Of a stretch of DNA of 64,000 bases, positions 18,788 to 35,246 are shown piece by piece. The notes under the pieces were generated by a model, which did not search any database, was not told the DNA's origin, and saw only the letters and a list, made by a program, of their open reading frames with translations. The stretch is from Rhodanobacter glycinis (GTDB lineage Bacteria > Pseudomonadota > Gammaproteobacteria > Xanthomonadales > Rhodanobacteraceae): assembly GCF_006438785.1 (NCBI RefSeq), contig NZ_RCZB01000008.1, forward strand, positions 1 through 64,000, in the 5' to 3' direction. Each line of letters starts with the position of its first letter. Positions within the stretch are counted from its first letter, which is position 1. The position numbers were made by a program, and so were the translations under genes.

Positions 18788-18939
18788 CTCCAGGTCGATC
18801 GGCGTGGGTTCTTGTCCGGCGACCGCGGATGGCCGGGCAATCCGGCCGATGGCTTTGCATCGCGGCTTTCAGCAGCTTTCACACGACCGACGGCGCGAGT
18901 CCCCAAGCGCATGGTTCGGCACGAATAGCGCCTGCGAGC

Positions 18940-18985
18940 CCAATGAATTGGCATCACCCAGGTTCCGACAATTGGCTATGTATCG
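18940..18985 (+). promoter_or_regulatory. Repeated ATTGG boxes and shared promoter box 1 (copy 1)
   Basis: ATTGG at 18947-18951 is repeated at 18972-18976, 25 bases further on, and the first copy is half of the palindrome-like CCAATGAATTGG (18940-18951). The 15-base segment AATTGGCTATGTATC (18971-18985) matches the segment at 25873-25887 in 14 of 15 positions. Direct repeats about two helical turns apart fit a MocR-type operator. Confidence 0.55.
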
Positions 18986-19024
18986 AGTCGATGCAGGTAC
19001 CTACGCTACAAATCAGACGTTTTT

Positions 19025-19060
19025 GTAACGAATCATTGACATCGCTACACATTCGTCCCC
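19025..19060 (+). promoter_or_regulatory. Shared promoter box 2 (copy 1)
   Basis: This 36-base segment, beginning GTAACGAATCATTGAC and ending GTCCCC, aligns without gaps with 25929-25964; I count 30 identical bases. The surrounding sequence has diverged, so the box is probably functional. TTGACA inside it resembles a -35, but no fitting -10 follows. Confidence 0.65.
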
Positions 19061-19077
19061 CTCCCCCCCAAAAAAAA
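19057..19077 (+). repeat. Homopolymer tract C5-T-C7-A8
   Basis: Five C, one T, seven C and eight A in a row lie between box 2 and the regulator start. Such tracts can change length by slippage and alter transcription. The second regulator has a shorter A7 tract (25913-25919) but at a different position, between the two boxes. Confidence 0.6.
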
Positions 19078-19131
19078 GATGCTTCGTTTTGCAGCCTCGC
19101 GGCTGCATTCCCCATCACGGAGATCACCACG

Positions 19132-19830
19132 ATGCCGACGATTGCGCCGTGCCTCGAACCCGTTCCACCGCGCGCGGACATGGCGCGTGGCCATGCAGCC
19201 GCGCTGATGCGTGAAGACCTGATCACGCGCATGGGCTCGCTGAAACAGACCGCGAGAGTGCATGCCGTCGGGCCGCGCACGGATGAATCACCGCCAGCAC
19301 GCGTGGCGAACATCGCGGGCGATCTGGCTGCGCGCATGCAACAGCTGATCGAACTTGAGGGCAGTGTCTCGGCGCTCGCCGAACGCTGCGGTTTTTCCGA
19401 AGGAGCGGTACGCAATTGGCGCGATGGACGCAGCGACATCTCGCGCGAGCGCTGCATCACCATGGCGCAGATTCTTGGCGTGTCGGTGCTCTGGCTGGTT
19501 GCAGGCGAAGGCCCCATGAAAGTCGGTCCGGAAAACTCACCGCCTCCGCAACCGATCTCGAGCACCTCGTCGCCATCGGCGCACTCGGCACCCGACACCG
19601 TGCGGATGGCGGGGCTCGATTCCAGGCTCCTCGCGGACAGCTTGCGCCTGTTGCAGTCGTATATAGGGCTCATCGGCGGGTCGCTGGATCCGAACTCCCG
19701 CGCCGACCGGGTGGCAGAGCTTTACGACATCCTCAGCCATGCCTGCGACGCTACCCATGTCAATCGCCTCATGAGCTTCCACAGCACGCTCAGCGATCAG
19801 CTCCGCCGAAACCGCGCGCTGATTGCCTGA
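19132..19830 (+). CDS. CI-like helix-turn-helix regulator paired with TonB receptor 1
   Basis: A 232-residue protein. Start 19132 follows GGAG; the longer frame back to 18829 crosses the promoter boxes. Residues about 62-125 form an XRE/phage-CI-like DNA-binding domain (MQQLIELEGSVSALAERCGF, SEGAVRNWRDGRSDISRERC, LGVSVLWLVAGEGPM). A Ser/Pro-rich linker and a helical C-terminal domain (LLADSLRLLQSYIGLIGGSLDPNSRADRVAELYDILSHACD) follow, perhaps for dimerisation. No protease or receiver domain is present. It precedes the receptor by 149 bases, same strand. Its close paralogue is at 26033-26722. Confidence 0.85.
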   Translation: MPTIAPCLEPVPPRADMARGHAAALMREDLITRMGSLKQTARVHAVGPRTDESPPARVANIAGDLAARMQQLIELEGSVSALAERCGFSEGAVRNWRDGRSDISRERCITMAQILGVSVLWLVAGEGPMKVGPENSPPPQPISSTSSPSAHSAPDTVRMAGLDSRLLADSLRLLQSYIGLIGGSLDPNSRADRVAELYDILSHACDATHVNRLMSFHSTLSDQLRRNRALIA

Positions 19831-19979
19831 ATCGTTGGGGCAACACCAAACCCGTGTGACGAGCTGCGGCCGTCCACGCAAACAAACCGGACCCCATGCC
19901 ACGGAATTTCCATTCCAGGGTGGACAGGGATTCCTGTTTTCCGGGTCCGATTTTCATCACCACAGAGACGGGGATTTAC

Positions 19980-22900
19980 ATGAGTAACCGCAGAAACATT
20001 GAACACAAGCCACGCAAGCAGCGCATGGCGGGTCAGGCGTTGAGCCTGGCCGTGGCAGTCACGCTGGGCCTGTACGGCACCATCGCGTCTGCGCCGGCCC
20101 ATGCGCAGGCCACTACCGGCAGCATTTTCGGCCAGGCACCCACGGGTAGCGGCGAGACGGTATTGGTTCGCAGCAATTCCGGCATATCCCGCCAGGTCGC
20201 GGTGGATGCGAGCGGCCACTACACCGTGGACTCGCTTCCGCTCGGCGACTACAGCGTGACTCTGCAGCGTGCCGGGCAAGCTGTCGATTCGCGCTCCCAC
20301 ATCACCATGCGGGTGGGGGCCGGTACCGAGGTTTCCTTCGCTGCGGCAAACGCCGCGGGTGCGCAGACGCTGACCGCGGTCACCGTGCAGGCCAATGCCC
20401 TGCCCACCATCGACGTAACCGGTGTCGACTCCCGTACCGTCATCACATCCCAACAACTGGCCCGCCTGCCGCTGGCACGCAGCGCCGAGGCGATCGCACT
20501 GCTCGCGCCGGGCGTGGTCGAAGGCAGCGGCCTGTTCAACGGCCTGAGCACCACCGGCGGCTCGGTGGTTTCGCTGGGCGGCTCCTCGGTCGTCGAGAAC
20601 GCGTACTACATCAACGGTTTCAACACGACCGATCCGCTGAGCGGCTTCGGCGGCCTGACCCTGCCCTACGGCGCCATCGATCAGCAGGAAGTCCTCAGTG
20701 GCGGCTATGGCGCGGCGTATGGCCGCTCCGATGGCGGCGTGATCAGCCAGGTCGGCAAGCGCGGCACCAACGAGTGGCATTTCGGTGGCCAGGTGCAATG
20801 GACACCTACCGACCTGCAAGGCGACCCCAAGAACTTCTACTACGTCAACAGTGACGGTTCGCGCGGCAGTATCTATCGCCGTCGCGGCGACAACAAGTCG
20901 TGGACGACCACGGTCGATGCCTACGTCGGCGGCCCGCTGATCAAGGACAAGCTGTTCTTCTTCGCCGCCGTCGAAGCCGAGCGCGAACAGGGCCTCGGCG
21001 ACTCCAACAGCCCAGTCGACCGCGGCGTGGGTCCGGTGACGGCGCCGTTCATCACGCACACGCGCGAGGATCGGCCGAAGTGGTACGGCAAGCTGGACTG
21101 GAACATCAACGACAGCAACGTGCTGGAGCTGACCGGCGCCTCCAGCAAGGACTCGTACCAGGGCACGACCTACAACTACGACTACGACAGTGGCAAGCAG
21201 ACCGACTACGTCGGCGGCGCCACCTCGACCAAGAACGGTGCCGATCTGTACTCGGCGAAGTTCACCAGCTACATCACCGACGACCTCACGGTGAGCGCGC
21301 TGTACGGCAAGATGAAGGGCACCTATTACAGCGACACGCCCGGATTCGATCCGACCAACCCGTACCTTTTCCACCCGGAAAACCAGAATCCGGCCATCAC
21401 CGGCGGCGACATCATCACCAACAACCAGACGGTGTCGACGATCAACCTGCCGGGGCATCGCTCGACCAACACCAACCTGCGCGTCGACATCAGCTACAAG
21501 CTGGGTGATCACACGTTGACCGCCGGTATCGACAACCAGAACTCGGCCAATGTCGACGCGGGTACGTACTTCCCGCCCAACGGTACCGGTTATGCGTGGT
21601 ACTACGACCAGATGACCGATGGCGACGGCAACCCGCTGCCGAACCAGTACATCCTGGGCGGCCCGGGAACGGCCGCAGCAGGTGCCGACTGGCACAACTC
21701 CCCGTGGGTGGCTGCGGCCGGCCCGGGCACCAACGGCTACTACGTCTACCAGTACCGCTATCACGACAACGGCTCGTTCCGCGTCGCACAGCGGGCGCAG
21801 TACATCGAGGACAGCTGGCAGGTCAACGACCGCTGGCTGGTCAAGATCGGTCTGCGCAACGACCAGTTCACGAACTACGGTGGCGACGGCCAGCCCTATC
21901 TGCGCCTGACCTCGCCGCAGTGGGCGCCGCGCGTGGGCTTCAGCTGGGACGTCAACGGCGACTCCAGCATGAAGGTCTACGGCAATGCCGGCCGCTATTA
22001 CCTCGCCTTGCCGAGCAGCGTGGCGCAGCGTTCGGCCGGTACCTCGCTGTACACCAGCACCTACTACACCTACACCGGTATCGACGCGAATGGCGTGCCC
22101 ACCGGCCTGACCCCGATCGACACCAGCGTCGGCGCCGGGCAGCCGCTGTCGAACAACGGCGAATATGGCCAGGGACGTGATCCCCGCACCGCGGCCTCGA
22201 CCAACCTGAAGTCGGAGTACCAGGACGAATACATCCTCGGTTTCGACAAGAAGTTGAACGACTCGTGGGTATACGGCGCCAAGGCGACCTATCGCAACCT
22301 GCGCAATGCCATCGACGACGTTGCCGACAACGTATCGATCATCGCGAAGATGAACGCGATGGGCATCGATCCGAACAGCTATGACGCCACGCAGGTACCG
22401 GGCAGCATCCTGATCAACCCGGGCAGCACCTCGTACTTCAACATCCCGAAGCTGGCCGGCGGCTACTACAACGTGCAGATGGACTGGAAGAACGACTTCC
22501 ATTTCAACACCACGATGAAGCGCAAGTACTACGGCCTGGACGTCTACCTGGAGCATCCGTTCGACGGCAAGTGGCAGGGCAAGATCGACTACCTGTGGTC
22601 GCGCAGCTACGGCAACAGCGAGGGCCAGGTGAAGACCGATGTCGGCCAGACCGACGTGTCGGCCACGTCCGACTGGGATTACGCGCAGATCATGGACTAC
22701 GCCAATGGCGAGCTGGCCAACAGCCGGCGTCACCAGATCAAGGCGTACGGTTCCTACCAGTTGAACCCGGCGTGGATGCTCTCCGGCAACCTGACGGTGA
22801 TGTCGGGCGCGCCGAAGAGCTGCCTTGGCCTGTATGCCAACAACACCAACCCGGGACTCGGTTACGGCACCTACTACCACTTCTGCAACGGCCAGCCTTC

Positions 22901-23126
22901 ATCGCCGGGCGAGACGCACAACCCGTGGACCTACCTGCTGAGCCTGAGTGCGGAATACCGGCCGGAATGGGCTCAGCGGCGACTGGGTTTCAACGTGATG
23001 GTCTACAACGTGCTTGACCAGCAGGAAACGACGCAGACCTATGCACGCCAGAACGTCAATTACATGCGCCCGTTCACCGCGCAGACACCGCGTTACGTGC
23101 GCTTTGGCGTGAACTACGACTTCTGA
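19980..23126 (+). CDS. TonB-dependent receptor, Oar-like (copy 1)
   Basis: Outer-membrane gated channel of 1048 residues. ATG 19980 follows AGACGGGGA. A signal peptide ends near PAHA (residue 41); residues 45-115 are a carboxypeptidase-regulatory-like beta domain; the plug follows (LARLPLARSAEAIALLAPGVVEG, GGSSVVENAYYINGFNTTDPL, GGYGAAYGRSDGGVISQVGKRG); the remainder is the barrel, ending in NYDF, a normal outer-membrane aromatic terminus. The ligand is unknown. The plug is nearly the same as in copy 2 while several barrel loops differ, suggesting related but different ligands. A strong terminator follows. Confidence 0.93.
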   Translation: MSNRRNIEHKPRKQRMAGQALSLAVAVTLGLYGTIASAPAHAQATTGSIFGQAPTGSGETVLVRSNSGISRQVAVDASGHYTVDSLPLGDYSVTLQRAGQAVDSRSHITMRVGAGTEVSFAAANAAGAQTLTAVTVQANALPTIDVTGVDSRTVITSQQLARLPLARSAEAIALLAPGVVEGSGLFNGLSTTGGSVVSLGGSSVVENAYYINGFNTTDPLSGFGGLTLPYGAIDQQEVLSGGYGAAYGRSDGGVISQVGKRGTNEWHFGGQVQWTPTDLQGDPKNFYYVNSDGSRGSIYRRRGDNKSWTTTVDAYVGGPLIKDKLFFFAAVEAEREQGLGDSNSPVDRGVGPVTAPFITHTREDRPKWYGKLDWNINDSNVLELTGASSKDSYQGTTYNYDYDSGKQTDYVGGATSTKNGADLYSAKFTSYITDDLTVSALYGKMKGTYYSDTPGFDPTNPYLFHPENQNPAITGGDIITNNQTVSTINLPGHRSTNTNLRVDISYKLGDHTLTAGIDNQNSANVDAGTYFPPNGTGYAWYYDQMTDGDGNPLPNQYILGGPGTAAAGADWHNSPWVAAAGPGTNGYYVYQYRYHDNGSFRVAQRAQYIEDSWQVNDRWLVKIGLRNDQFTNYGGDGQPYLRLTSPQWAPRVGFSWDVNGDSSMKVYGNAGRYYLALPSSVAQRSAGTSLYTSTYYTYTGIDANGVPTGLTPIDTSVGAGQPLSNNGEYGQGRDPRTAASTNLKSEYQDEYILGFDKKLNDSWVYGAKATYRNLRNAIDDVADNVSIIAKMNAMGIDPNSYDATQVPGSILINPGSTSYFNIPKLAGGYYNVQMDWKNDFHFNTTMKRKYYGLDVYLEHPFDGKWQGKIDYLWSRSYGNSEGQVKTDVGQTDVSATSDWDYAQIMDYANGELANSRRHQIKAYGSYQLNPAWMLSGNLTVMSGAPKSCLGLYANNTNPGLGYGTYYHFCNGQPSSPGETHNPWTYLLSLSAEYRPEWAQRRLGFNVMVYNVLDQQETTQTYARQNVNYMRPFTAQTPRYVRFGVNYDF

Positions 23127-23149
23127 CCCACCAGGAAGCGTAAGCAACG

Positions 23150-23186
23150 GGGGCACCGCCGGGGATCCGGCGGTGCCCCTTTTTTT
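23150..23186 (+). terminator. Intrinsic terminator of TonB receptor 1
   Basis: A perfect 13-bp stem (GGGGCACCGCCGG, 23150-23162, with 23167-23179), loop GGAT, followed by seven T. It lies 24 bases after the receptor stop. Confidence 0.95.
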
Positions 23187-23270
23187 CAACCCGTCCATTG
23201 AAGGTTTCCCGGATGCCAGGTTCGACTGTTGATGTATCGCGCAGCTCGGCCGCGGCGTCGCGCGCCGTAC

Positions 23271-23291
23271 GCGGCAGACAATGTCTGCCGC
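23271..23291. promoter_or_regulatory. 21-base palindrome between receptor 1 and MocR 1
   Basis: GCGGCAGACA (23271-23280) is perfectly repeated in inverse at 23282-23291 with one base between. A one-base centre suits a dimer-binding operator better than a hairpin. It is the only clear structure in the 23187-23592 gap, 302 bases before the MocR 1 start. Confidence 0.45.
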
Positions 23292-23592
23292 ATGGAGCAG
23301 GCCCAGCGCGTCATGCGCATGCCCCATCGTGGCCGATCCCGAATACCGGTCATCCCGCGCGGGTCTCCGCTAACCCGGCACAAGCCGGGCCATTCCGAGC
23401 CAATCGATGACTTTCGGCGGGCATTGCTGACCATCTCGGCAGCTTCATCGAATCTGCCCATGCAATGACTTCTGCCGCACGACGCTCGCTGCCGAAATAC
23501 CTAAACTCGCTCGCAGGCCAGTGCGTATTCCCCCTGCGTGCTGGCTGCAATCCAACAACGACAGCATTTCTGAAACCCCTCGGAGATCTGGC

Positions 23593-25071
23593 ATGTTTCT
23601 CATTCTTGACGGAGACGGCCCGCAGTATTCCCAGCTCACGCGTGCGATGCGGGCCGCCATCCTGAGCGGCCGCATGGGCGCCGGCTCACGACTGCCTCCA
23701 ACCCGGCAGCTTGCGCAGGAGCTGGGTTTGTCGCGTACCACCGTGATGGCCGCCTACGAGCAGTTGCGCGCCGAAGGCTTTATCGAGGCGCGGACTGGCT
23801 CGGGCAGTTACGTGGCCGCATTGCAGACCAACCACCCGCCACCGCCGACCGTGCGCTCGATTGTCGCGCCTTCGCGCTATGCGAGCCGGGCACGCCTGAT
23901 ACAGGACCGGACGATTGCCCGCACCCACCGCGATGTGCGCTACGACCTGCAATACGGCAATCCCCTGATCAATCCGTACCTCAGCGAGATCTGGGGACGG
24001 GAGTTGGCACGTGCGGCCGCCTATACGGCACCCAACGGAGTCTCGTCGGAAGGCCTGCTGGCCCTGCGTGTGCAGATATGCGAGTACCTGGCTCGCCGAC
24101 GTGGCGTGCAAACGGTGCCCGAGAACGTGCTGATCGTCAGCGGAACCCAGCAGGCACTCTCGCTGGCCACCAGGGTGCTGCTGAACGAAGGCGATTCGGT
24201 GGTGCTTGAGGAGCCCCATTACTTTGGGGTCTACCAGGCCATGGTCGCGCATGGTGCACGCGTACTGGGCGTCCCCGTCGACGAACAAGGCCTGCTTTGC
24301 GCCGCACTGCCAAAGCCTTCGCCGCCGTTGATCTGCGTAACTCCGTCGCACCAGTTCCCCACCGGTGCCGCCATGTCGCTGCCACGGCGACTGGAACTGT
24401 TGCGCCATGCCCATGCCCAGCGCTGCTGGATTCTCGAAGACGACTACGACGGCGAGTTCAGCTATCGCGCCCAGCCACTGGCCGCCCTGCGATCACTCGA
24501 CCGGGACGACCGCGTGATCTACGTCGGCACCTTTTCCAAGGTCATGTTCGGCTCCCTGCGACTTGCCTACATGGTGTTGCCGGTGGCGCTGCGGGAGGAC
24601 TTCATCAATGCCAAGTTCCTCAGCGACTTTGGCTGCTCGGGCATCGAACAAGCGGCCCTCGCGCACTTCATGGAAAGCGGTGGGTTCGAGCGGCATCTGC
24701 GGTTGGCCCGCAAGGAGCTCAAAGCCCGTCGCGAGGAGCTGATTCGCGGTTTGCAGCACTACGCTGGAGCACGGGTCGAGATCGTCGATTCCTCCGCCGG
24801 CATGCACGTGGTCGCCTGGTTGCCCGGTTATGACCACGCGGCAGTGCAGGAACTGGTCGACCTTGCGCACGCGCGCGGCCTGGGCCTGTATCCGATGGCG
24901 CCGCATTACCTCAATGCACCGGCGCGGCCGGGCCTGCTGCTGGGGTATTGCGGCCTGTCGGCGCAGGAACTGCGGGAAGCGATGCAGTTGTTGGGCAACT
25001 GCCTGGACGAGCTCGACCGGCGACTCGGGGATCAACCGGTCGAGCTTCGGCAACGCCGGTGCATGCCGTAA
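23593..25071 (+). CDS. MocR-type regulator (GntR HTH + aminotransferase fold), copy 1
   Basis: A 492-residue PdxR/GabR-like protein. The N-terminal winged helix (about 8-75) has LPPTRQLAQELGLSRTTVMAAYEQLRAEGFIEARTGSGSYV. After a linker comes a type-I PLP fold with SGTQQALSLATRVLL, CVTPSHQFPTGAAMS, LEDDYDGEFSY and the PLP lysine in GTFSKVMFG (Lys316). ATG 23593 is preceded by CGGAG. Its effector may be PLP with an amino acid or amine. It follows receptor 1 as the MocR pair 2/3 follows receptor 2. The aminotransferase part is most like MocR 3. Confidence 0.93.
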   Translation: MFLILDGDGPQYSQLTRAMRAAILSGRMGAGSRLPPTRQLAQELGLSRTTVMAAYEQLRAEGFIEARTGSGSYVAALQTNHPPPPTVRSIVAPSRYASRARLIQDRTIARTHRDVRYDLQYGNPLINPYLSEIWGRELARAAAYTAPNGVSSEGLLALRVQICEYLARRRGVQTVPENVLIVSGTQQALSLATRVLLNEGDSVVLEEPHYFGVYQAMVAHGARVLGVPVDEQGLLCAALPKPSPPLICVTPSHQFPTGAAMSLPRRLELLRHAHAQRCWILEDDYDGEFSYRAQPLAALRSLDRDDRVIYVGTFSKVMFGSLRLAYMVLPVALREDFINAKFLSDFGCSGIEQAALAHFMESGGFERHLRLARKELKARREELIRGLQHYAGARVEIVDSSAGMHVVAWLPGYDHAAVQELVDLAHARGLGLYPMAPHYLNAPARPGLLLGYCGLSAQELREAMQLLGNCLDELDRRLGDQPVELRQRRCMP

Positions 25072-25084
25072 ACGCGAGTCGTCG

Positions 25085-25588
25085 TCAGGAAACGGCGGAA
25101 CCGGGCGGAACCAGGGAGCCAGGCTGCGCGGCCCAGCGTGACGCCCAGGCAATGGGCAGACCGACAAGCAGGACGTGCACCGCGACGCTACTGAGTACCC
25201 AACCCGCAACGAAGGGCGGTCTCGCCGCAGCCGACAAGGGCAGCACGATCAGGTTCATGACGAGGTAGAGCAGCAGACCGTACAGCGGCCCGCTGAGCCG
25301 CGGCTTGCGCGTGAGCACCGGCACCCACCGGCGTGCGGCGTAGAACGTACCGACCATCGCCCACATCATGGCGTAGTGCAGCAGTGCCCCAAGCCACGCG
25401 GTCGCCGAACCACCGCGGAAAGCCTGCCCGCCCAGCCACCCCGCGGCGATGCCCTGAAGAATGCGCGACGGTCGCACGTTCCAGTACGTGCAGGCAAAGA
25501 CGAGATCGAGGGTGCCCAGCACCACCGCCGTGCCGAGCAGCACCAGCGACGGCCGGATGGCAGATTGAAACCAGGACATCGGCGACAT
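25085..25588 (-). CDS. Small membrane protein of unknown function (copy A)
   Basis: A 167-residue four-helix membrane protein, paralogue of the 15420-15953 product (shared TLDLVFACTYW / TLDMLVAITYW, SRILQ...GWLGG, LYGLLLYLVMNLIVLPL). ATG 25588 has GGAG nine bases before it; the frame could start at 25660 but without a ribosome site. It is convergent with MocR 1 (14 bases between stops) and divergent from regulator 2 across the 444-base promoter region, so its expression may be tied to the same operators. Function unknown. Confidence 0.78.
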   Translation of the reverse strand: MSPMSWFQSAIRPSLVLLGTAVVLGTLDLVFACTYWNVRPSRILQGIAAGWLGGQAFRGGSATAWLGALLHYAMMWAMVGTFYAARRWVPVLTRKPRLSGPLYGLLLYLVMNLIVLPLSAAARPPFVAGWVLSSVAVHVLLVGLPIAWASRWAAQPGSLVPPGSAVS

Positions 25589-25849
25589 CAGGACTTGCTC
25601 CATCGGGTGATTGATCGGGTCCGGCCCGCGCCATGCTGCAGCATTTTTGGGCTCCGGCATTTCTTACGGAAAGTCCCGCTGCCGCGTAACGAAACGCACC
25701 TACGCGTGCCGGCAACCGCCGGCCCGACGACCACTGAAGCCGGACGTCCCCGTGGATGGCCGCGCCCCTTTGCACGACTGGCAGCGTACGACACCGCGAC
25801 GTGCGCTTACACGACCAATTCTTTCGCGTTGACGCTTGGCGACACGCCG

Positions 25850-25887
25850 ATTGGCTTCGTCGGATTTGAAAAAATTGGTTATGTATC
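25850..25887 (+). promoter_or_regulatory. Repeated ATTGG boxes and shared promoter box 1 (copy 2)
   Basis: ATTGG at 25850-25854 is repeated at 25874-25878, 24 bases on. The segment AATTGGTTATGTATC (25873-25887) matches 18971-18985 in 14 of 15 bases. The distance to box 2 is 56 bases here and 54 in copy 1. Confidence 0.55.
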
Positions 25888-25928
25888 TGCCAAGTTCTGC
25901 TCTCTATCCTCCAAAAAAAGACGCCTGC

Positions 25929-25964
25929 GTAACGAAACATTGACGTCGCAACAGAGTTGTCCCC
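25929..25964 (+). promoter_or_regulatory. Shared promoter box 2 (copy 2)
   Basis: A 36-base segment from GTAACGAAACATTGAC to GTCCCC, matching 19025-19060 in 30 positions without gaps. It ends 68 bases before the regulator 2 start. Confidence 0.65.
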
Positions 25965-25981
25965 ACGGTTGTCCAGCGCAT

Positions 25982-26008
25982 CCCCGCCAACGCCTTTTCG
26001 AGGCGGGG
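25982..26008 (+). promoter_or_regulatory. Stem-loop in the regulator 2 leader
   Basis: CCCCGCC (25982-25988) pairs with GGCGGGG (26002-26008) around a 13-base loop, 25 bases before the start. Regulator 1 has its own stem (19091-19106) at a similar place with unrelated sequence. This could affect translation; function inferred only from position. Confidence 0.4.
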
Positions 26009-26032
26009 TTACCACCATCGAGGTCTCGACCG

Positions 26033-26722
26033 ATGACGACAGATGCAGCCAGGCTCGAACCACCCGCATCGCATCAGGTTGCTGATCACGGATGCATGAC
26101 CGGCTCGCCGAGCGACAACTTCCACAACCAGATGAGCCTGGTTCAAGGCACCGCCGCAGCGCAGTCGACCATGGTGCACGTCGCACCAGTGCAGACGACG
26201 GCGACGGTTGCACGAGGCCTGCCCGAGCGCATCCGCAAGTTGATCGACCTGCAGGGAAGCGCTGCTGCCCTCGCCGAGCGCTGCGGCTTTTCGGCCGGTG
26301 CCGTGCGCAGCTGGCGCGATGGCCACAGCGACATCTCGCGCGAGCGCTGCGTGACCATGGCGCGGGCGCTGGGCGTTTCGCTCCCGTGGCTGGTCGCCGG
26401 CGAAGGCCCCATGGCCGCCGCTGCGGACGATGTGATCCACCAACCGGCGCCGCTCGACAGGACAGCACACAGCCTGGCTCGCGCAGCGAGCTCGCGCGCC
26501 GGCAGCCTCGACTCCAGGCTTCTCGCTGCCGCGCTGCGGCTACTCCAGTCCTATATCGGACTGGTCGGCGGATCGCTGGATCCAACCGCGCGTGCCGAGT
26601 TGCTTACCGAGCTCTACGACATTCTCGCGCGCGCCGAGGATGCCGAGCACATAGATCGTCTGATCACTTTTCACAACGCGCTCAGCGACCAGCTTCGTCG
26701 TCAGCGCGCGTTGATTTCCTGA
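26033..26722 (+). CDS. CI-like helix-turn-helix regulator paired with TonB receptor 2
   Basis: A 229-residue paralogue of the regulator at 19132. ATG 26033 follows CGAGGT; the long frame back to 25175 crosses the promoter. The DNA-binding domain covers about residues 61-125 (IRKLIDLQGSAAALAERCGF, SAGAVRSWRDGHSDISRERC, LGVSLPWLVAGEGPM); the C-terminal helical domain (LLAAALRLLQSYIGLVGGSLDPTARAELLTELYDILARAED) is strongly conserved between copies, while the N-terminal 55 residues and the linker differ. The recognition helices are almost the same, so both copies may bind both promoters. The receptor starts 147 bases downstream. Confidence 0.85.
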   Translation: MTTDAARLEPPASHQVADHGCMTGSPSDNFHNQMSLVQGTAAAQSTMVHVAPVQTTATVARGLPERIRKLIDLQGSAAALAERCGFSAGAVRSWRDGHSDISRERCVTMARALGVSLPWLVAGEGPMAAAADDVIHQPAPLDRTAHSLARAASSRAGSLDSRLLAAALRLLQSYIGLVGGSLDPTARAELLTELYDILARAEDAEHIDRLITFHNALSDQLRRQRALIS

Positions 26723-26869
26723 GCTGCCATACCTGCCGGCGAGGTTGACCGGCAGCTTGGGCACCTGGCGAGGAACAGGTAGTTCCATCGCCACCGATTC
26801 TTTCTTCCAGGTGGGCTCGGATCCGTTTCCGGAGAATCCGACCCCACCGCCACTGAGACGGGGAGTTAC

Positions 26870-29800
26870 ATGAATAATCGCAGGATTGTCCAAAGCAACC
26901 ACCGGCGCCGCTACCTGGCGAGTCACGCATTGAGCCTGGCCATTACCGCCACCTTGGGGCTATACGGTTCAACCGCGCTTGCCCAAGCCACCACCGGCTC
27001 CATTTTCGGGCAGGCGCAGGCCGGGGAAACGGTCGTGATCCAGAGTACGTCCGGCATCAATCGACAAGTCGTCGTGGATTCAACCGGCCACTACACCGTC
27101 AGTTCCCTGCCGCTGGGCAGCTACACGGTGACTCTGCAGCAGAACGGGCAGACCGTTGACTCGCGCCCGAACGTTACCTTGCGCGTGGGCACGGGCACCG
27201 AGGTCTCGTTCGGCGGTGCAGCCAACGCGCAGAATCTGCAAGGCGTGACTGTCGTCGCCAATGCGTTGCCGTCGATCGACGTGAGCGGTGTCGATTCTCG
27301 TACGGTCATCACTGCCGGGCAGCTTGCGCGGTTGCCGCTGGCGCGCAGCGCGGAAGCGATCGCGTTGCTCGCGCCGGGCGTGGTGGAGGGCAGCGACACG
27401 TTCATGGGCATGGGCATGGGCGCCTCGTCGCCGCGGAAGTTCGTTTCGTTCGGCGGCTCGTCGGTGACCGAGAACGCGTACTACATCAACGGCTTCAACA
27501 CCACCGATCCGATCAGCGGCTTCGGCGGCCTGAGCCTTCCCTACGGCTCGATCGACCAGCAGGAAATCCTCAACGGCGGTTACGGGGCGGCCTATGGCCG
27601 TTCCGACGGCGGCGTGATCAGCCAAGTCGGCAAGCGCGGCACCAACGAGTGGCACTTCGGCGGGCAGATACTGTGGAAGCCCAAGAGCCTGCAGGGCGAC
27701 CCGCGCGACATCTACTACTCCAACGCCAGCCCCAATGCGGGCAAGCTGTACTGGCGGCGTGGCAGCAACAAGTCCAGCACGACCACGGTTGACGCGTACG
27801 TTGGCGGCCCGCTGATCAAGGACAAGCTGTTCCTGTTTGCCTCGGTGGAGGGCGAGCGCATCCAGGGTACCGGCGCCTCCGGCGGCACACCCTCGGGTGC
27901 AATCGGCGATCCGGCGGGCGTGGGCATCAACACGCCGCCCAGTTACAACAACCACACCCGCCTGGACGACCCGAAATGGTACGCCAAGCTGGATTGGAAC
28001 ATCACCGACAGCAACCTGCTCGAGCTCACCGGCGCCTCGAACAAGTCGTCCTATCGCGGCAACCTTTACCAGTACGACTACGCCACCGGCAAGCAAGGGC
28101 CGTTCGACCATCCCGACCTGCACATCAAGGACGGATCCGACCTGTACGTGGCCAAATTCACCAGCTATATCACCGACAGCCTTACCTTCTCCGCGCTGTA
28201 CGGCAAGATGACCGGCACGCACTACAACGAGTTGCCCGGCTACGACCCCACCCTGATTCCCATCGCCGGACAGACGTCGCAGAACCCCGACATCACCGGT
28301 GGCCAGACCATCGGCAATGCGCAGACGATTGGCGCGCTGTTCGACCCGCAACATGCCACCAAGAACACCAACCTGCGCCTGGACCTGAGTTACAAGCTGG
28401 GCAGCCACACGCTGACTGCGGGCATCGACAACCAGAACGTGCGCGACATCCACGACGGCCAGTTCCCCTCCGGTCCCGGCTATGCATGGGCGTATGCATC
28501 CGGCGACCCGAACAGCTGGATCGCCGGCGGTCCGGACGCGAACGGACCCGGTTGGCAGGGGTATCCGTGGGTGCGACCGCCGGGCCAGTACACCGGCGGC
28601 GAGACCGGCTACTACGTTTCGAAACAGATCTTCGCCAACAGCGCCTCGGTGCGGGTGAAACAGCAGGCGCAATACATCGAGGACGCCTGGCAGATCACCG
28701 ATCGCTGGCTGGTCAAGCTGGGTCTGCGCAACGACCAGTTCACCAACTACAACGGCGTGGGCATCCCGTATCTGCGACTCACCAGTGGCCAGCTGGCACC
28801 GCGGCTGGGCTTCTCCTGGGACGTGAACGGCGATTCCAGCTTCAAGGTGTACGGCAACGCCGGGCGCTACTACCTGGCGGTACCGGCCTCGGTGGCGCTG
28901 CGCTCGGCCGGCTCGTCGACCTTTACCAACGTTTACTACACCTACACCGGTATCGACCCGAGCACCGGCTATCCCACCGGCCTGACCCCGATCGATACCT
29001 ATCGCGGCCTCGAGCAGCCGATCTCCGCCAATCTCGAATACGGCAATCCGCGCGATCCCAAGACAGCCGCCGCCACCAACATCAAGTCCGAGTACCAGGA
29101 CGAGCTGATCCTCGGCTTCGACAGGAAGCTCGGCGATGCCTGGGTGTACGGCGCCAAGGCCACCTGGCGCAAGCTCGGCCGCGCCATCGACGACTGGGGC
29201 GACACTGGCCGCATCGCCGCCAAAATGGCGGAGCTGGGCATGAACGACTACGACCCGGTCAACGGCATCCAGGGCAGCTACCTGATCAACCCGGGCAAGA
29301 ACCCGATCATCCAGATCCCGAAACTATCCGGTGGCTACTACCAGGTGCCGCTGGACTGGAAGAAGGACATGGGCTTCAACACCTCGCTGAAGCGCAAGTA
29401 CTACGCGCTCGACCTGTACCTGGAGCATCCGTTCGATGGCAAGTGGTACGGCAAGATCGACTACCTGTGGTCGCACAACTTCGGCAACACCGAGGGTCAG
29501 GTACGTTCGGACATCGGCCAGACCGACGTGTCGGCGACGGTGGACTGGGATTATGCCCAGGTCATGGACTACGCCAACGGCGCGCTGTCCAACGACCGCC
29601 GCCACCAGATCAAGGCCTACGGCTACTACCAGCTGACCCCCGAGTGGATGCTGTCAGGCAATGCCGCGGTCCTGTCCGGCGCGCCCAAGACATGCATGGG
29701 CTTCTACGGAGCAGACCAGACCAACCCGGGCCTGGGCTACGGTGCGTTCTACCACTTTTGCGGCGGCACGCCGGTTTCACCCGGCTACAAGCGCGAAGCG

Positions 29801-30019
29801 TGGACCTACCTGCTGAGCCTGGGTGCCGAGTACCGCCCGGACTGGGCAGACCACAAGCTGGCCTTCCAGGTGCAGGTCTACAACGTGCTCGATCAACAGC
29901 GCATCACGCAGCACAACGGACGCTACGGCAGCTCGGCGAAAGTGCGACCCACCTACGATCTGCCCCTGTCCACGCAACCGCCTCGCTACGTGCAGCTGGG
30001 CATAACCTACGACTACTAG
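26870..30019 (+). CDS. TonB-dependent receptor, Oar-like (copy 2)
   Basis: A 1049-residue outer-membrane receptor, paralogue of the one at 19980. ATG 26870 has the same leader (GAGACGGGGA) as copy 1. Signal peptide ends near STALA; residues about 38-115 form the carboxypeptidase-regulatory-like domain; the plug follows and the barrel ends in TYDY. Compared with copy 1 it has an insert rich in Gly, Ser, Pro and Thr near residue 335 and different loops near residues 450-590. The intergenic sequence before it is also alignable with that before copy 1, so regulator and receptor were duplicated together. Confidence 0.93.
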   Translation: MNNRRIVQSNHRRRYLASHALSLAITATLGLYGSTALAQATTGSIFGQAQAGETVVIQSTSGINRQVVVDSTGHYTVSSLPLGSYTVTLQQNGQTVDSRPNVTLRVGTGTEVSFGGAANAQNLQGVTVVANALPSIDVSGVDSRTVITAGQLARLPLARSAEAIALLAPGVVEGSDTFMGMGMGASSPRKFVSFGGSSVTENAYYINGFNTTDPISGFGGLSLPYGSIDQQEILNGGYGAAYGRSDGGVISQVGKRGTNEWHFGGQILWKPKSLQGDPRDIYYSNASPNAGKLYWRRGSNKSSTTTVDAYVGGPLIKDKLFLFASVEGERIQGTGASGGTPSGAIGDPAGVGINTPPSYNNHTRLDDPKWYAKLDWNITDSNLLELTGASNKSSYRGNLYQYDYATGKQGPFDHPDLHIKDGSDLYVAKFTSYITDSLTFSALYGKMTGTHYNELPGYDPTLIPIAGQTSQNPDITGGQTIGNAQTIGALFDPQHATKNTNLRLDLSYKLGSHTLTAGIDNQNVRDIHDGQFPSGPGYAWAYASGDPNSWIAGGPDANGPGWQGYPWVRPPGQYTGGETGYYVSKQIFANSASVRVKQQAQYIEDAWQITDRWLVKLGLRNDQFTNYNGVGIPYLRLTSGQLAPRLGFSWDVNGDSSFKVYGNAGRYYLAVPASVALRSAGSSTFTNVYYTYTGIDPSTGYPTGLTPIDTYRGLEQPISANLEYGNPRDPKTAAATNIKSEYQDELILGFDRKLGDAWVYGAKATWRKLGRAIDDWGDTGRIAAKMAELGMNDYDPVNGIQGSYLINPGKNPIIQIPKLSGGYYQVPLDWKKDMGFNTSLKRKYYALDLYLEHPFDGKWYGKIDYLWSHNFGNTEGQVRSDIGQTDVSATVDWDYAQVMDYANGALSNDRRHQIKAYGYYQLTPEWMLSGNAAVLSGAPKTCMGFYGADQTNPGLGYGAFYHFCGGTPVSPGYKREAWTYLLSLGAEYRPDWADHKLAFQVQVYNVLDQQRITQHNGRYGSSAKVRPTYDLPLSTQPPRYVQLGITYDY

Positions 30020-30032
30020 TCCTCGCGGCACG

Positions 30033-30059
30033 CGCCCCGGCCGGGGAACGGCCGGGGCG
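30033..30059 (+). terminator. Hairpin after TonB receptor 2
   Basis: CGCCCCGGCCG (30033-30043) pairs with 30049-30059 over 11 bases, loop GGGAA. There is no T-run. Position right after the receptor suggests a terminator or attenuator before the thioredoxin gene. Confidence 0.6.
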
Positions 30060-30127
30060 TCATGCAGACATGCCACTGGTGTGCGAGGCGGGTATCCGTG
30101 CCGCTTCCGGTTCGCGGAGTAAATGTC

Positions 30128-31084
30128 ATGAAGCAACTTTTGCTGTTCATCGGCCTGTTGCTGGGGAGTGCAGCCGGCGGCGCCGGCGCGTCAGTGACGC
30201 CGGCACATCCGCCGGAATTTGCCGGCATCTCGCAGTGGATCAACTCGCCGCCACTGACCCTCGCCGGCCTGCGCGGCAAGGTCGTGCTGATCGATTTCTG
30301 GGCCTACTCTTGCATCAACTGCCTGCGCGCGATGCCGCACGTCGAGCACCTGTACGAGACCTACAAGGACAAGGGCCTGGTCGTCATCGGCGTGCATTCG
30401 CCGGAGTTCGATTTCGAGAAGGATCTGGCGAACGTCAAGGGTGCGGTGACACGCCTTGGCATCACCTACCCGGTGGCTACGGACAACCATCTCGGCACAT
30501 GGAATGCCTGGCAGAACCTGTACTGGCCGGCGGAATACCTGATCGACCAGAACGGCAACCTGATCGGCCACCACTATGGCGAAGGCGACTACCTGAAAAT
30601 GGAAAACGCCATCCGCCTGCTGCTCGGAATGAACCTGCTGCCGGAAAACGGGAGCGCCGGCAATTCCGCTGCCGGCGCCGTTGTAGCTTCACCCGAGATG
30701 TACATCGGCAGTGCCAAGCAGAAAAACCTGGCCAGCCCGGAAACCGGCCACAACGGCACCCGGCACTTCAGCATCCCGGCACGACTCGCAATGAATCGCT
30801 TCGCGCTCTCCGGCGTGTGGGAGATCAGCGACAAATATGCCCAGTTGGCCAGTGCACATGGCGAACTGCAGCTGCATTTCAAGGCGGGCAAGCTGCACAT
30901 GGTTGCCAGCTCGGAGCAGCCGATCCCGCTGGAGATAGTCGTCGACGGAAAGCTGCAGCCCACGGTTACGGTACAGACCAGTCGCCTGTACACCTTGTTC
31001 GACAGTGACGATTACCGGGAGCATTCGCTGACCCTGCGCATTCCACAAGCGGGCCTGCAGATATACACCTTCACCTTCGGGTGA
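30128..31084 (+). CDS. DipZ-like secreted thioredoxin with C-terminal beta domain
   Basis: A 318-residue exported redox protein; ATG 30128 follows GGAG. A signal peptide (about 1-22) precedes a TlpA/DipZ-type thioredoxin fold with the active site WAYSCINCLRAM (Cys62 and Cys65) and YLIDQNGNLIGHHYGEGDY. From about residue 175 a second domain begins with SPEMYIGSAKQ, as in the C-terminal part of DipZ proteins. The membrane CcdA-like part of full DipZ is missing, and no other ccd gene is near. It may keep receptor or ligand disulfides reduced in the periplasm; that is inference. Confidence 0.85.
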   Translation: MKQLLLFIGLLLGSAAGGAGASVTPAHPPEFAGISQWINSPPLTLAGLRGKVVLIDFWAYSCINCLRAMPHVEHLYETYKDKGLVVIGVHSPEFDFEKDLANVKGAVTRLGITYPVATDNHLGTWNAWQNLYWPAEYLIDQNGNLIGHHYGEGDYLKMENAIRLLLGMNLLPENGSAGNSAAGAVVASPEMYIGSAKQKNLASPETGHNGTRHFSIPARLAMNRFALSGVWEISDKYAQLASAHGELQLHFKAGKLHMVASSEQPIPLEIVVDGKLQPTVTVQTSRLYTLFDSDDYREHSLTLRIPQAGLQIYTFTFG

Positions 31085-31230: not shown

Positions 31231-32058
31231 TCATGCGGAAGCGGGTTCCCGTTGAGGACGATGCTCCGGGCCGGCGTCCATCGTCACCGCAGACCGCGCG
31301 AAATATCCAGCCATCAGCCAGGCACCACCACACAGCGCGATGGCAACACACAGACTGGTCCATTCCGCCTGGCTCCGCGGATTCGCCAGCACGCGCGGAA
31401 CGTGCACAATCAGTACCCAGCTCCCGAACATGACGCCCAGCATCGTCGCGGCCAGTCGCGCCTGCACGCCGCTCAGGATGGCCAGACCGGCCGCGATGTG
31501 CGCACAGCCGGTGAAATATGCCCAGAACACCGGCGAGCCGGGGATCCAACCGGGAATCACGCTGGCGACGTATTGCCAGTAAATGAAATGCAAGGCGCCG
31601 AACACCGGCAGCGAGACGCCAAAACCGTAGCGTCCGCTGTCTGCCAGTCGACGGAATCGACCGTACCAGGGTGTGCGCCCGGCCGCGCTATCCGACAGTG
31701 CGCACGCCAGCACCCATGCAACACTGCACAAAGCGAGACACTCGAATGCGGAGGTCCACTTGCTGCCATTGTGAAGATGCGTGAGCAGTGTCGGCACATG
31801 CAACAAGATCAGCCAGAGCGACAGCAGAACTCCCAGCGCAATTGCCGATTCACGTGGCCGCAACCGATTGCTCAGGACACCCCCTCCACCCGCGACAAGT
31901 AGCAAGGCAGTGATATAAGTCCACAGCGTCTGCGCCGGCAGCCAGTCAGGCAGCGGCTCCAGCCCGAGAACGGGAATGGCAAACACGAAGTTGAGCACGC
32001 CGAAAGCCAGCATGCCGATACCGAACAGACCGCTACCAAGACGTGTGGCACTTCTCAT
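31231..32058 (-). CDS. DoxX-like membrane protein, two repeats
   Basis: A 275-residue protein of about eight helices made of two related four-helix DoxX-like halves (first GIGMLAFGVLNFVF..., second GVSLPVFGALHFIYW... with AGLAILSGVQARLAATMLGVMF). ATG 32058 has AAGGA before it. DoxX-family proteins are linked to thiol and thiosulfate metabolism; the actual role here is unknown. It is convergent with the thioredoxin gene and divergent from MocR 2, with 211 bases between the starts, so it could be a MocR 2 target. Confidence 0.8.
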   Translation of the reverse strand: MRSATRLGSGLFGIGMLAFGVLNFVFAIPVLGLEPLPDWLPAQTLWTYITALLLVAGGGGVLSNRLRPRESAIALGVLLSLWLILLHVPTLLTHLHNGSKWTSAFECLALCSVAWVLACALSDSAAGRTPWYGRFRRLADSGRYGFGVSLPVFGALHFIYWQYVASVIPGWIPGSPVFWAYFTGCAHIAAGLAILSGVQARLAATMLGVMFGSWVLIVHVPRVLANPRSQAEWTSLCVAIALCGGAWLMAGYFARSAVTMDAGPEHRPQREPASA

Positions 32059-32228
32059 GAGGCATCCTTTGTCGGATGAAGTACGAGGTCGTTCGCGCCA
32101 TGCAACCCAGGACATGCCGGGCGATACCGACCTGTCCTGGCCTGATTCTGGCAAAGCGCAGCAATGGCGCTTTTTGAAACTTCACTGGCACAAGACAGAC
32201 TAGGCACTGCAGCCCCTGTCATCCATGA

Positions 32229-32257
32229 CCAATTTCGCCATATTTGCAGGAGCCAAT
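32229..32257 (-). promoter_or_regulatory. Repeated ATTGG boxes in reverse orientation before MocR 2
   Basis: CCAAT occurs at 32229-32233 and 32253-32257, i.e. ATTGG on the minus strand repeated 24 bases apart, the same spacing as before regulator 2. It ends 13 bases before the MocR 2 start, suiting autoregulation of MocR 2 and control of the divergent DoxX-like gene. Confidence 0.5.
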
Positions 32258-32269
32258 CGGAGGGTCGGC

Positions 32270-33772
32270 ATGTTTCTGGAACTGGATGGCCATGGGCCAC
32301 ACTACGCGCAGCTTACCCGCGCCATGAAGACCGCGATCCTCGACGGACGCATGGCTGCAGGTTCGCGACTGCCACCCACCCGGGTTCTGGCGCACGAGCT
32401 CGAACTTTCGCGCACCACCGTGCTGGCCGCCTACGAGCAATTGCGCGCGGAAGGTTTCATCGATGGCCGCGTGGGCTCGGGCAGCTATGTGACGAACCTG
32501 CCCATTGCTTCGACGCAGAGCCCTTGCGAGGCCGAGTTCACATCGCCCTCGCGCTACGTGCGGCGCGCGCGTCTGGGGCACGACCTGAGACCGACCCGAC
32601 AGCAGTACAAAGTGCGCTACAACCTGCTGTCCACCAACCCGCTGATCAACCCGGCGCTGGTCGACCTCTGGAGTCGCGAGCTGGCCCGCGCGGCCACGCA
32701 TACGGCGCTGGAGGAGAACAGCGCGCAAGGCCTGTTCGCCCTGCGCCAGCAGGTATGCGACTACCTGGCCCGTCGCCGCGGCATAAGGGCTTCGCCCGAG
32801 GACGTGCTGATCACCAGCGGTGCCCAGCAGGCGTTCTCGCTGACGGCGCGCGTGCTGCTCGACGAAGACGACACGGTAGTGATGGAAGATCCGGACTATT
32901 TCGCCGCGTACCAGGCGTTCGCCGCACACGGTGCGCGCCTGCGCCTTGTGCGCACGGACGCCGACGGCCTGGTCTGCGGCGAATTGCCGGCGGCGCCGCC
33001 GCGACTGGTTTGCGTTACCCCTTCGCACCAGTTCCCCGGCTGCAGTGTGCTCTCGCTGTCGCGTCGCCTGGAACTGTTGCGCTACGCGGCAGATCAGTCG
33101 TGCTGGATCCTGGAGGACGATTACGACGGCGAGTTCCGCTACGACGGCCGCCCGCTGGCCGCGCTGCGCTCGCTCGACGACGGCAATCGCGTGATCTACG
33201 TGGGCAGCTTCTCCAAGATGCTGTTCAGTACTTTGCGACTGGGCTACATGGTGCTGCCTGCCGCGTTGCGCGACGACTTCGTCGCCGCGAAATACCTGTG
33301 CGATTCCGGCTGTCCCGGCATCGAACAGGCGGCGCTGGCGCACTTCATGGAAAACGGCGGGTTCGAGCGGCATCTGCGACGCGTCCGCAAAGAACTGATG
33401 GCACGCCACCATGCTCTGATCGAAGGCCTGCGCCGATACGTCGGTCGGCGCGTGGACATCGTCGACTCGCCAGCCGGCATGCACGTGGTAGCGTGGTTGA
33501 ACGGCTACGGCCATGCCCGCGCGGAAGAGCTGGTCGCGCACGCGCGCACGCGCGGCCTGGGCCTCTATCCGATGACGTGGTACGTGCATCAGCCGCCGCC
33601 GCGTGCCGGCCTGCTGCTCGGCTACGGCCGGCTGTCGACCACGGCGCTGCACGAGGCCATGCAGCTGTTCGGCCAATGCCTGGACGAAATGGATGCCGGC
33701 AGCGACCGCACGCCGCGCCGCCGCACCGCCGCTCTCCGGCCGGCCGACGCAACCGATCCGGCGGAGCCCTGA
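32270..33772 (+). CDS. MocR-type regulator, copy 2
   Basis: A 500-residue GntR-winged-helix plus aminotransferase-fold regulator. ATG 32270 follows CGGAGGG; the frame could begin at 32225 but with no better site. The HTH reads LPPTRVLAHELELSRTTVLAAYEQLRAEGFIDGRVGSGSYV, nearly the same as in MocR 3. The PLP lysine lies in GSFSKMLFS (Lys316). Its aminotransferase domain is the most divergent of the three (YKVRYNLLSTNPLINPAL, MTWYVHQPPPRAGLLLGYGRLS). The stop is one base before the MocR 3 start. Confidence 0.92.
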   Translation: MFLELDGHGPHYAQLTRAMKTAILDGRMAAGSRLPPTRVLAHELELSRTTVLAAYEQLRAEGFIDGRVGSGSYVTNLPIASTQSPCEAEFTSPSRYVRRARLGHDLRPTRQQYKVRYNLLSTNPLINPALVDLWSRELARAATHTALEENSAQGLFALRQQVCDYLARRRGIRASPEDVLITSGAQQAFSLTARVLLDEDDTVVMEDPDYFAAYQAFAAHGARLRLVRTDADGLVCGELPAAPPRLVCVTPSHQFPGCSVLSLSRRLELLRYAADQSCWILEDDYDGEFRYDGRPLAALRSLDDGNRVIYVGSFSKMLFSTLRLGYMVLPAALRDDFVAAKYLCDSGCPGIEQAALAHFMENGGFERHLRRVRKELMARHHALIEGLRRYVGRRVDIVDSPAGMHVVAWLNGYGHARAEELVAHARTRGLGLYPMTWYVHQPPPRAGLLLGYGRLSTTALHEAMQLFGQCLDEMDAGSDRTPRRRTAALRPADATDPAEP

Positions 33773-33773
33773 C

Positions 33774-35246
33774 ATGTTCCTCGAACTGGATGGCCACGGG
33801 CCACACTACGCGCAGCTCACCCGCGCCATGAAGGCCGCAATCCTCGACGGCCGCATGGTCGCAGGCTCGCGACTGCCGCCCACGCGGGTTCTGGCGCACG
33901 AGCTCGAACTTTCGCGCACCACCGTGCTGGCCGCTTACGAACAACTTCGGGCGGAAGGCTTCATCGACGCCCGCGTGGGCTCGGGCAGCTATGTCGCCAC
34001 GCTGCAGCCGGGGGCGGCATTGCAGCCGCCGACTAAAGTGATCAGCGCACCTTCGCTCTACGCGGCGCGCGCGCGACAGGTGCAGGACCGCAAGATCGCC
34101 ACGCAGCATCGCGGATTGCGCTATCACATGCAGTACGGCGAACCGACGATCAATCCCATGCTCAACAGTGCCTGGAGCCGCGAGCTGGCGCGTGCCGCCG
34201 CCTATACGCCGGCAAGCGGTGCCGGTTCGCAGGGCCTGCCGGCGCTGCGCCAGCAGGTTTGCGACTATCTCGCCCGCCGGCGTGGTGTACAGGCGGTGCC
34301 GGAAAATGTGCTCATCGTCAGTGGCACCCAGCAGGCGTTCTCGCTGGCCGCCCGCGTGTTGCTGAACGAAGGCGACAGCGTGGTGCTGGAGGAGCCGCAT
34401 TATTTCGGCGCCTATCAGGCGCTCATCGCGCATGGCGCCCACGTCTGTGGCGTACGCACCGACGCTGACGGCCTGGTCTGCAGCGAATTGCCTGCCACGG
34501 CGCCTTCGCTGATCTGCGTGACGCCGTCACACCAGTTCCCGACTGGCGCCGTGCTGTCGCTGCCGCGCCGACTGGAACTGCTGCGCTACGCCGATGCGCA
34601 GCGATGCTGGATCCTCGAGGACGATTACGATGGCGAATTCCGTTATGACGCCCATCCGCTGGCGGCATTGCGTTCGCTCGATCAGGCCGACCGGGTGATC
34701 TATGTCGGGACCTTTTCCAAGGTCCTGTTCGGCACCCTGAGACTGGCCTACATGGTGCTCCCTGTAGCACTGCGAGACGACTTCATCATCGCCAAGTATC
34801 TCAATGATTTTTCCTGCCCAGGTTTCGAACAGGCGGCACTGGCGCACTACATGGGAGACGGCGGATTCGAGCGGCACCTGCGGGTGGTACGCAGGGAGCT
34901 CAGGGCCCGTCACGAGGAGCTCATCCGGGGTCTGCGCGAACATGCCGGCGAGCGGGTGGAGATCGTTGACTCGCCAGCGGGCATGCACGTGGTCGTGTGG
35001 TTTCGCGATTACGACGAGGCGCAAGCGAACGCACTGCTCGAACTGGCCAGCTCGCGCGGCCTGGGCATGTATGCAATGGCGCCGCACTACCTGAACCCAC
35101 CGGCGCGCCAGGGCCTGTTGCTCGGCTACTGCGGACTCTCGACCGGTGAGCTTCGCGACGCGATGAAGCTGTTTGGCGCCTGCATGGACGAGATCGACGC
35201 GCGCATGCTTTCTGGCCGTGCCCTAAGCGCCGGCGCCCGTGCGTGA
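33774..35246 (+). CDS. MocR-type regulator, copy 3
   Basis: A 490-residue protein starting one base after the MocR 2 stop; its ribosome site (CGGAG) lies in the last codons of MocR 2, so the two are translationally linked. Residues 1-75 are nearly the same as in MocR 2, but the PLP domain (VLIVSGTQQAFSLAARVLLNEGDSVVLEEPHYFG, GTFSKVLFGTLRLAYMVLPVALRDDF) is closer to MocR 1. PLP lysine Lys316. The mosaic similarity suggests gene conversion of the DNA-binding domain or of the enzyme domain. Confidence 0.92.
   Translation: MFLELDGHGPHYAQLTRAMKAAILDGRMVAGSRLPPTRVLAHELELSRTTVLAAYEQLRAEGFIDARVGSGSYVATLQPGAALQPPTKVISAPSLYAARARQVQDRKIATQHRGLRYHMQYGEPTINPMLNSAWSRELARAAAYTPASGAGSQGLPALRQQVCDYLARRRGVQAVPENVLIVSGTQQAFSLAARVLLNEGDSVVLEEPHYFGAYQALIAHGAHVCGVRTDADGLVCSELPATAPSLICVTPSHQFPTGAVLSLPRRLELLRYADAQRCWILEDDYDGEFRYDAHPLAALRSLDQADRVIYVGTFSKVLFGTLRLAYMVLPVALRDDFIIAKYLNDFSCPGFEQAALAHYMGDGGFERHLRVVRRELRARHEELIRGLREHAGERVEIVDSPAGMHVVVWFRDYDEAQANALLELASSRGLGMYAMAPHYLNPPARQGLLLGYCGLSTGELRDAMKLFGACMDEIDARMLSGRALSAGARA

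Follow-up and report, generated by a model that had tools for sequence, protein, structure and literature searches.

A MocR regulator with a recombined DNA-binding head in a TonB-receptor locus of Rhodanobacter glycinis

Three MocR-type regulator genes, all read forward, lie in a 64,000-nucleotide stretch of the 4.28-Mb genome of Rhodanobacter glycinis (hereafter, the window). Each product combines a GntR-type winged helix-turn-helix head (wHTH; PF00392, residues 12-74) with an aminotransferase domain of fold type I (Aminotran_1_2, PF00155), and the two tandem genes MocR2 and MocR3 have nearly identical heads. The locus thus raises the question of which gene is the mosaic, and of what two regulators with one type of head would do in the same cell. 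Features are collected in Table 1.

Table 1. Positions of the genes, gene parts and predicted sites in the window.
Feature	Position	Strand	Evidence or remark
Predicted MocR operator before XRE1-TBDT1	18947-18980	+	continues into -10-like TATGTA
XRE1, YdaS/CI-like HTH protein	19132-19830	+	predicted start
TonB-dependent receptor 1 (TBDT1), with carboxypeptidase-regulatory-like domain	19896-23126	+	Pfam
MocR1	23593-25071	+	related to the single MocR at the same place in G028 and G006
Predicted MocR operator before XRE2-TBDT2	25850-25883	+	continues into -10-like TATGTA
XRE2	26033-26722	+	predicted start
TonB-dependent receptor 2 (TBDT2)	26870-30019	+	Pfam
Redoxin/thioredoxin-like protein, downstream of receptor 2	30062-31084	+	Pfam
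DoxX-like membrane protein, divergent from MocR2	31231-32154	-	Pfam 24.4 bits, cut-off 23.6; start predicted at 32058 (leader boundary)
Leader, divergent DoxX-like gene to MocR2	32059-32269	+	orthologous to the MocR3-type leader of G040
Predicted MocR operator shortly before the MocR2 start	32224-32257	-	
MocR2	32270-33772	+	500-aa open frame
MocR2 codons 1-75, wHTH copy 1, MocR3-type	32270-32494	+	identity to MocR3, head tree, shared sites
MocR2 linker plus aminotransferase-like body; isolated, divergent lineage with the PLP lysine retained	32495-33772	+	body tree, motif departures
MocR3	33774-35246	+	
MocR3 codons 1-75, wHTH copy 2	33774-33998	+	97% aa and 92% DNA against the G040 orthologue
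MocR3 linker and body, ordinary orthologue	33999-35246	+	body clade with G040, G005 and G034, 100/100

MocR2 and not MocR3 is the mosaic

A single base separates the MocR2 stop from the MocR3 start. Over codons 1-75 the two genes agree at 71 of 75 residues (95%), 202 of 225 nucleotides (90%) and 34 of 45 fourfold degenerate sites; in the linker (codons 76-150) the figures are 36% for protein, 56% for DNA and 10 of 18 fourfold sites, and in codons 151-475 they are 70%, 73% and 65 of 135. The original prediction had stated that the likeness is limited to the first ~75 residues and their DNA, and this was borne out: beyond codon ~75 the two are distant paralogues. Identity along the pair is not uniform, with a maximum chi-square break after codon 74 when all sites are used (0 of 2000 permutations reach the score). 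Third positions place the break at codon 73 (20/2000) and fourfold sites at codon 71 (32/2000), the best split for codons of identical residues only lies at 126 (47/2000), and fourfold identity differs between head and body (Fisher p=0.0017). Taken alone, this silent-site evidence is moderate. A sharp identity break that includes silent sites, combined with the different placement of the two parts described below, marks a recombination product.

In a search of 45 genomes of the genus, the window's own included, one close MocR3 orthologue was found in each of three congeners (G040, G005 and G034; 87-89% identity), and no MocR2 was found in these three genomes. MocR3 is orthologous to these genes from end to end, with amino acid identities of 91-97% in the head and 90-91% in the body. 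Against the G040 gene, MocR3 reaches 97% (protein), 92% (DNA) and 74% (fourfold sites) in the head and 91%, 86% and 62% in the body, and MocR2 reaches 92%, 88% and 67% in the head and only 72%, 73% and 51% in the body. In the body tree, MocR3 and the three orthologues form a clade with full support (100/100) and MocR2 is a lone long branch; constraining MocR2 into the MocR3 clade was rejected (p=0.006), as was a group of MocR2, MocR3 and G040 (p=4e-8).

The head is placed elsewhere. MocR2, MocR3 and G040 form a clade in head trees of 43 rows (95/96) and 38 rows (87/89), and at 16 head sites these three genes agree with one another and differ from the state common to G005 and G034. The 225-bp head by itself places the genes only weakly: neither a grouping of the four MocR3-type genes without MocR2 (p=0.235) nor one of MocR3 with the MocR1 clade (p=0.351) was rejected, and MocR2 and MocR3 as direct sisters fit equally well (p=0.53). 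As support for a chimeric MocR2, head-only trees are therefore moderate.

It is the flank that decides which gene is the mosaic. The DoxX-like gene before MocR2 is 86% identical in DNA to that of G040, and the 200-bp leader matches the G040 leader at 155 of 195 positions (79%), including 48 of the last 50 bp. Since gene and leader are both of the G040 type, MocR2 sits on the original MocR3-type leader and head. The DNA before MocR3 is MocR2 coding sequence and resembles a leader at background level only, its 200 bp matching the G040 leader at 92 of 182 positions, as unrelated leaders do (85/196 to 111/183). A comparison with five leaders gave no convincing remnant of a MocR3-type leader before MocR3; of 500 shuffles, the score was reached by 238 for the window's own MocR2 leader, 12 for G040, 329 for G005, 114 for G034 and 254 for G022, and the match to the G040 leader contains gaps, is rich in GC and lies ~90 bp before the start. 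Scanning 31900-32400 for a sigma-70 consensus yielded no promoter. The data support a recombination by which MocR2 and MocR3 came to have the same DNA-binding part, as had been proposed for these tandem genes; the choice of the mosaic gene and the role assigned to MocR1 did not hold.

As a rough inference, the recombination may be about as old as the species splits from G040 and G028, because the MocR2 and MocR3 heads have nearly the same fourfold identity (76%) as the peptidase genes of the window species and of G040 or G028 (77-78%; 65-82% across eight congeners).

A repeated joint at the wHTH/linker edge

The MocR gene of G005 (L111, 6526-5087) is a second recombinant with the same joint. 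Its DoxX-like gene, leader and head are of the G034 type (93%, 90% and 93% DNA identity), its body is of the G040 type (89%, versus 80% to G034), and the break falls at codon 62 (0/2000 permutations). MocR3 and G040 show no clear break over all sites (182/2000); a third-position break between MocR3 and G005 (8/2000) arises because the G005 gene is itself recombinant. Between MocR2 and G040 the break is strong over all sites (0/2000) and not significant at silent sites (146/2000 for third positions, 956/2000 for fourfold sites). A scan of 44 of the 903 gene pairs yielded three at no more than 5/1000 permutations, their breaks lying at codons 62, 68 and 120. G005 is a member of two of these pairs, and MocR2/MocR3 scored 12/1000. 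The wHTH/linker edge is accordingly a repeated crossover site at this locus. DNA identity between MocR2 and MocR3 is lowest in the linker, and a crossover driven by homology would be expected to stop in such a segment.

When paralogues or alleles of a regulator recombine within the gene, the crossover falls in the DNA segment that is most conserved. The present case is alike in this respect and unlike in that the joint lies at a domain edge in two lineages, so that the sensor is changed while head, leader and operator are kept. A literature search of titles and the opening parts of abstracts found no report of recombination between MocR genes.

No donor of the MocR2 body was identified in searches of family genomes, order genomes and plasmids. 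Of 233 family genomes, 88 gave a match at E<=1e-120; among the candidates scored, up to eight per genome, the best relatives reach 66-67% amino acid identity, 67% being the highest value outside the window's own genome. There was likewise no close relative in 398 order genomes (four, counting that of the window, at E<=1e-165, with up to four candidates scored per genome) or in 72,556 plasmid records, of which 1199 gave matches, each below 60%.

In MocR1 we observed a separate irregularity: codons 1-32 (23593-23688) have a fourfold identity to MocR2 of 0.06, against 0.57 afterwards (3/2000 permutations).

A predicted operator common to MocR2 and two TonB-receptor modules

Of 16 congener loci fetched, eight are syntenic, and all eight carry a single MocR gene at this place, in the order prolyl oligopeptidase, XRE-TonB-receptor module, MocR, and then 2OG-oxygenase and pyrophosphatase genes. 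The gene is of the MocR3 type in G040, G005, G034 and G022 and of the MocR1 type in G028, G006, G042 and G008; the window genome has both types in tandem, plus MocR2. It also has two tandem XRE-TonB-receptor modules (18829-31084), versus one in each of the eight congeners. The two receptors are 64% identical to each other in amino acids, and receptor 1 is 93-95% identical to its counterparts in the four MocR1-type congeners.

We made several further observations in this region. A recent transfer of receptor 1 need not be invoked, its fourfold identity to G028 (78%) being equal to that of the neighbouring peptidase gene (78%). Receptor 2 is 82% identical in amino acids (81% in DNA) to a gene of Dyella sp. 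SG609 (L031), and just 44-51% identical in amino acids to the receptors at the same place in the four MocR3-type congeners, so that receptor cassettes seem to be exchanged. The protein encoded next to MocR1 at 25085-25660 (minus strand) has no Pfam or NCBIfam match; in Dyella dinghuensis (L032) a 47% relative adjoins the MocR gene, and in G004 (L125) relatives of 35-36% lie ~7 kb from one.

Several MocR leaders have CCAATT-N17-GCCAAT in common. Allowing gaps of 14-19, this pattern matches three times genome-wide, always at this locus (reversed-pattern control, 0); it was built from MocR leaders, and neither of the sites that precede the XRE genes contributed to it. In its extended direct-repeat form, ATTGG-N19-ATTGGYYATG, the predicted operator occurs three times without mismatch in the 4.28-Mb genome, one before each XRE/TonB-receptor module and one before MocR2. 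A single site elsewhere (C1:747240) has one mismatch and 23 have two, for 27 matches with 0-2 mismatches in all, versus 3 in the control. Of 47 MocR genes, 16 have the operator upstream, against an average of 0.06 and a maximum of 2 in mononucleotide shuffles, a count to be read with the fact that the pattern was made after these leaders had been seen.

Among relatives, the operator precedes the receptor module in seven of the eight syntenic congeners, in G005 by a relaxed pattern only, and continues into TATGTA in the module leaders; G040 has none there, even at three mismatches. It stands before the MocR gene in all four MocR3-type congeners and in none of the four MocR1-type ones, nor before MocR1 of the window. 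A repeat operator near the regulator's own gene, a trait of the MocR subfamily, is thus represented by the predicted site in the MocR2 leader, with no such site at MocR1. In 16 other genomes searched, scattered matches also occur away from MocR loci, most of them in G119, G121 and G122. In the study of Suvorova and Rodionov (2016; PMC5320631), MocR motifs are frequently direct repeats with helical-turn spacing, and many contain a conserved TGT or TGG; the repeats and TGG group of the present operator fit this description. The terms TonB, Xanthomonad and Dyella have no match in the main text of that study.

The shared head supports the earlier proposal that MocR2 and MocR3 would recognize the same DNA target. 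MocR1, too, probably binds the predicted operator, which at this locus its relatives carry before the receptor module and not elsewhere; the target would therefore not be special to MocR2 and MocR3.

Sensor bodies, competing explanations and regulation

MocR2 and MocR3 align over their full length with GabR. The FSK motif, whose lysine we take to be the one that binds PLP, is present in all three proteins and is aligned with that of GabR in MocR2 and MocR3, from which PLP binding is predicted. Among solved structures, MocR2 is best matched by 7pq9, annotated as 'PLP-dependent aminotransferase family protein' (E 6e-60), followed by GabR, and MocR3 by GabR of Bacillus subtilis (PDB 4n0b, 4mgr; E 6e-55). 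All three proteins resemble PdxR-type regulators in domain composition and in their scores with the PdxR model NF052282 (406-422 bits, cut-off 320). Unlike PdxR loci, however, no pdx gene occurs among the neighbours examined, and PLP synthesis is probably not the target of these regulators, since the perfect operator sites precede XRE/TonB-receptor modules and MocR2. At the position aligned with GabR Arg430, MocR3 has Pro and MocR2 has Trp, and GABA is therefore not an expected ligand of either. Different effectors, as originally suggested, are plausible because MocR2 is odd near the ligand pocket. A changed ligand would be the likeliest difference between the two proteins, given that MocR2 keeps the PLP lysine and has Trp in place of Pro at the Arg430 position.

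Three other explanations were weighed. A mosaic MocR3, with its head from MocR2 and its body from MocR1, is very improbable. Among the three genes its head is closest to MocR2, and its body is closer to MocR1 (75% amino acid identity) than to MocR2 (70%), so that part of the original observation stands; a grouping of MocR1 with MocR3 was nevertheless rejected in the body tree (AU p=6.9e-71), and the three bodies are about equally distant at silent sites (fourfold identity 54% for MocR1-MocR3, 48% for MocR2-MocR3 and 56% for MocR1-MocR2). The full-length orthologues, moreover, bear the same head type in genomes where no MocR2 was found. The motifs EPHYFG, MAPHYLN and LLLGYCGLS, which had been read as linking MocR3 to MocR1, are mostly the commonest states of the family: in the MocR alignment EEPHYFG and TPSHQFPTG each occur in 21 of 43 members and LLLGYCGLS in 17 of 43, and the P and Y of MAPHYLN are nearly universal (41/42 and 40/42 other members). 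MocR2 is the gene that departs, with EDPDYFA, TPSHQFPGC, PMTWYVHQ and LLLGYGRLS.

An origin of MocR2 by an old tandem duplication of MocR3, with a fast-diverging body and a head kept by purifying selection alone, is disfavoured, and we consider it unlikely. It would agree with the long branch of the MocR2 body, with a silent-site break of p just ~0.01 and with heads being generally more conserved than bodies (83% versus 75% amino acid identity for MocR1-MocR3), but it would not account for the sharp difference in fourfold identity between the MocR2/MocR3 head and body or for the exclusion of the MocR2 body from the MocR3 clade, and the MocR1-MocR3 heads have no silent-site excess (47% at fourfold sites). 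Less probable again is a decaying MocR2 without a regulatory role. The residues G122T, G258C, P437W and Y439V are unusual for conserved columns, yet the frame is open, the PLP lysine and EDDYDGEF are retained, and the number of departures at 95%-conserved columns is five, where MocR3 has none, MocR1 has four and other open-frame members have as many as 18.

We thus regard it as probable that MocR2 is a chimera in which a MocR3-type leader and wHTH were joined to a second body, and that both sensors serve one receptor regulon. The ancestral locus would have held one MocR3-type gene behind the oppositely read DoxX-like gene, as still seen in G040, G005, G034 and G022. Recombination at the wHTH/linker edge would then have joined a second MocR body to this leader and wHTH, leaving the original MocR3 directly downstream with its own wHTH and without its own leader. 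The product would be a probable two-gene operon with one leader and operator, two near-identical heads and two PLP-fold sensor bodies.

GabR represses its own gene and activates its target. By analogy, MocR2 and MocR3, and probably MocR1, may bind ATTGG-N19-ATTGGYYATG, with MocR2 and MocR3 repressing their own operon through the site near the MocR2 start and acting on the two XRE/TonB-receptor modules, where an operator running into a -10-like TATGTA (a promoter element read by eye) would suit GabR-like activation. Most likely, MocR2 is an additional sensor that was put behind the old promoter and head and that works with MocR3, and probably MocR1, on one receptor regulon. A broader reading, that the locus is a sensor-swapping device, is tentative and rather doubtful: crossovers at the wHTH/linker edge would repeatedly plug new PLP-fold sensor bodies under a constant leader, head and operator governing exchangeable TonB-receptor cassettes, and here the two sensors of one operon would jointly control two receptor alleles, possibly in the form of heterodimers.

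In summary, the locus provides two examples of recombination at a domain border and connects MocR regulators with TonB-receptor modules in a testable, three-site regulon. Most MocR regulators have no known ligand. The pair described here amounts to a natural domain swap, with one type of head and operator and two sensor bodies in the same cell, and if MocR2 and MocR3 respond differently, the sensor should be the cause.
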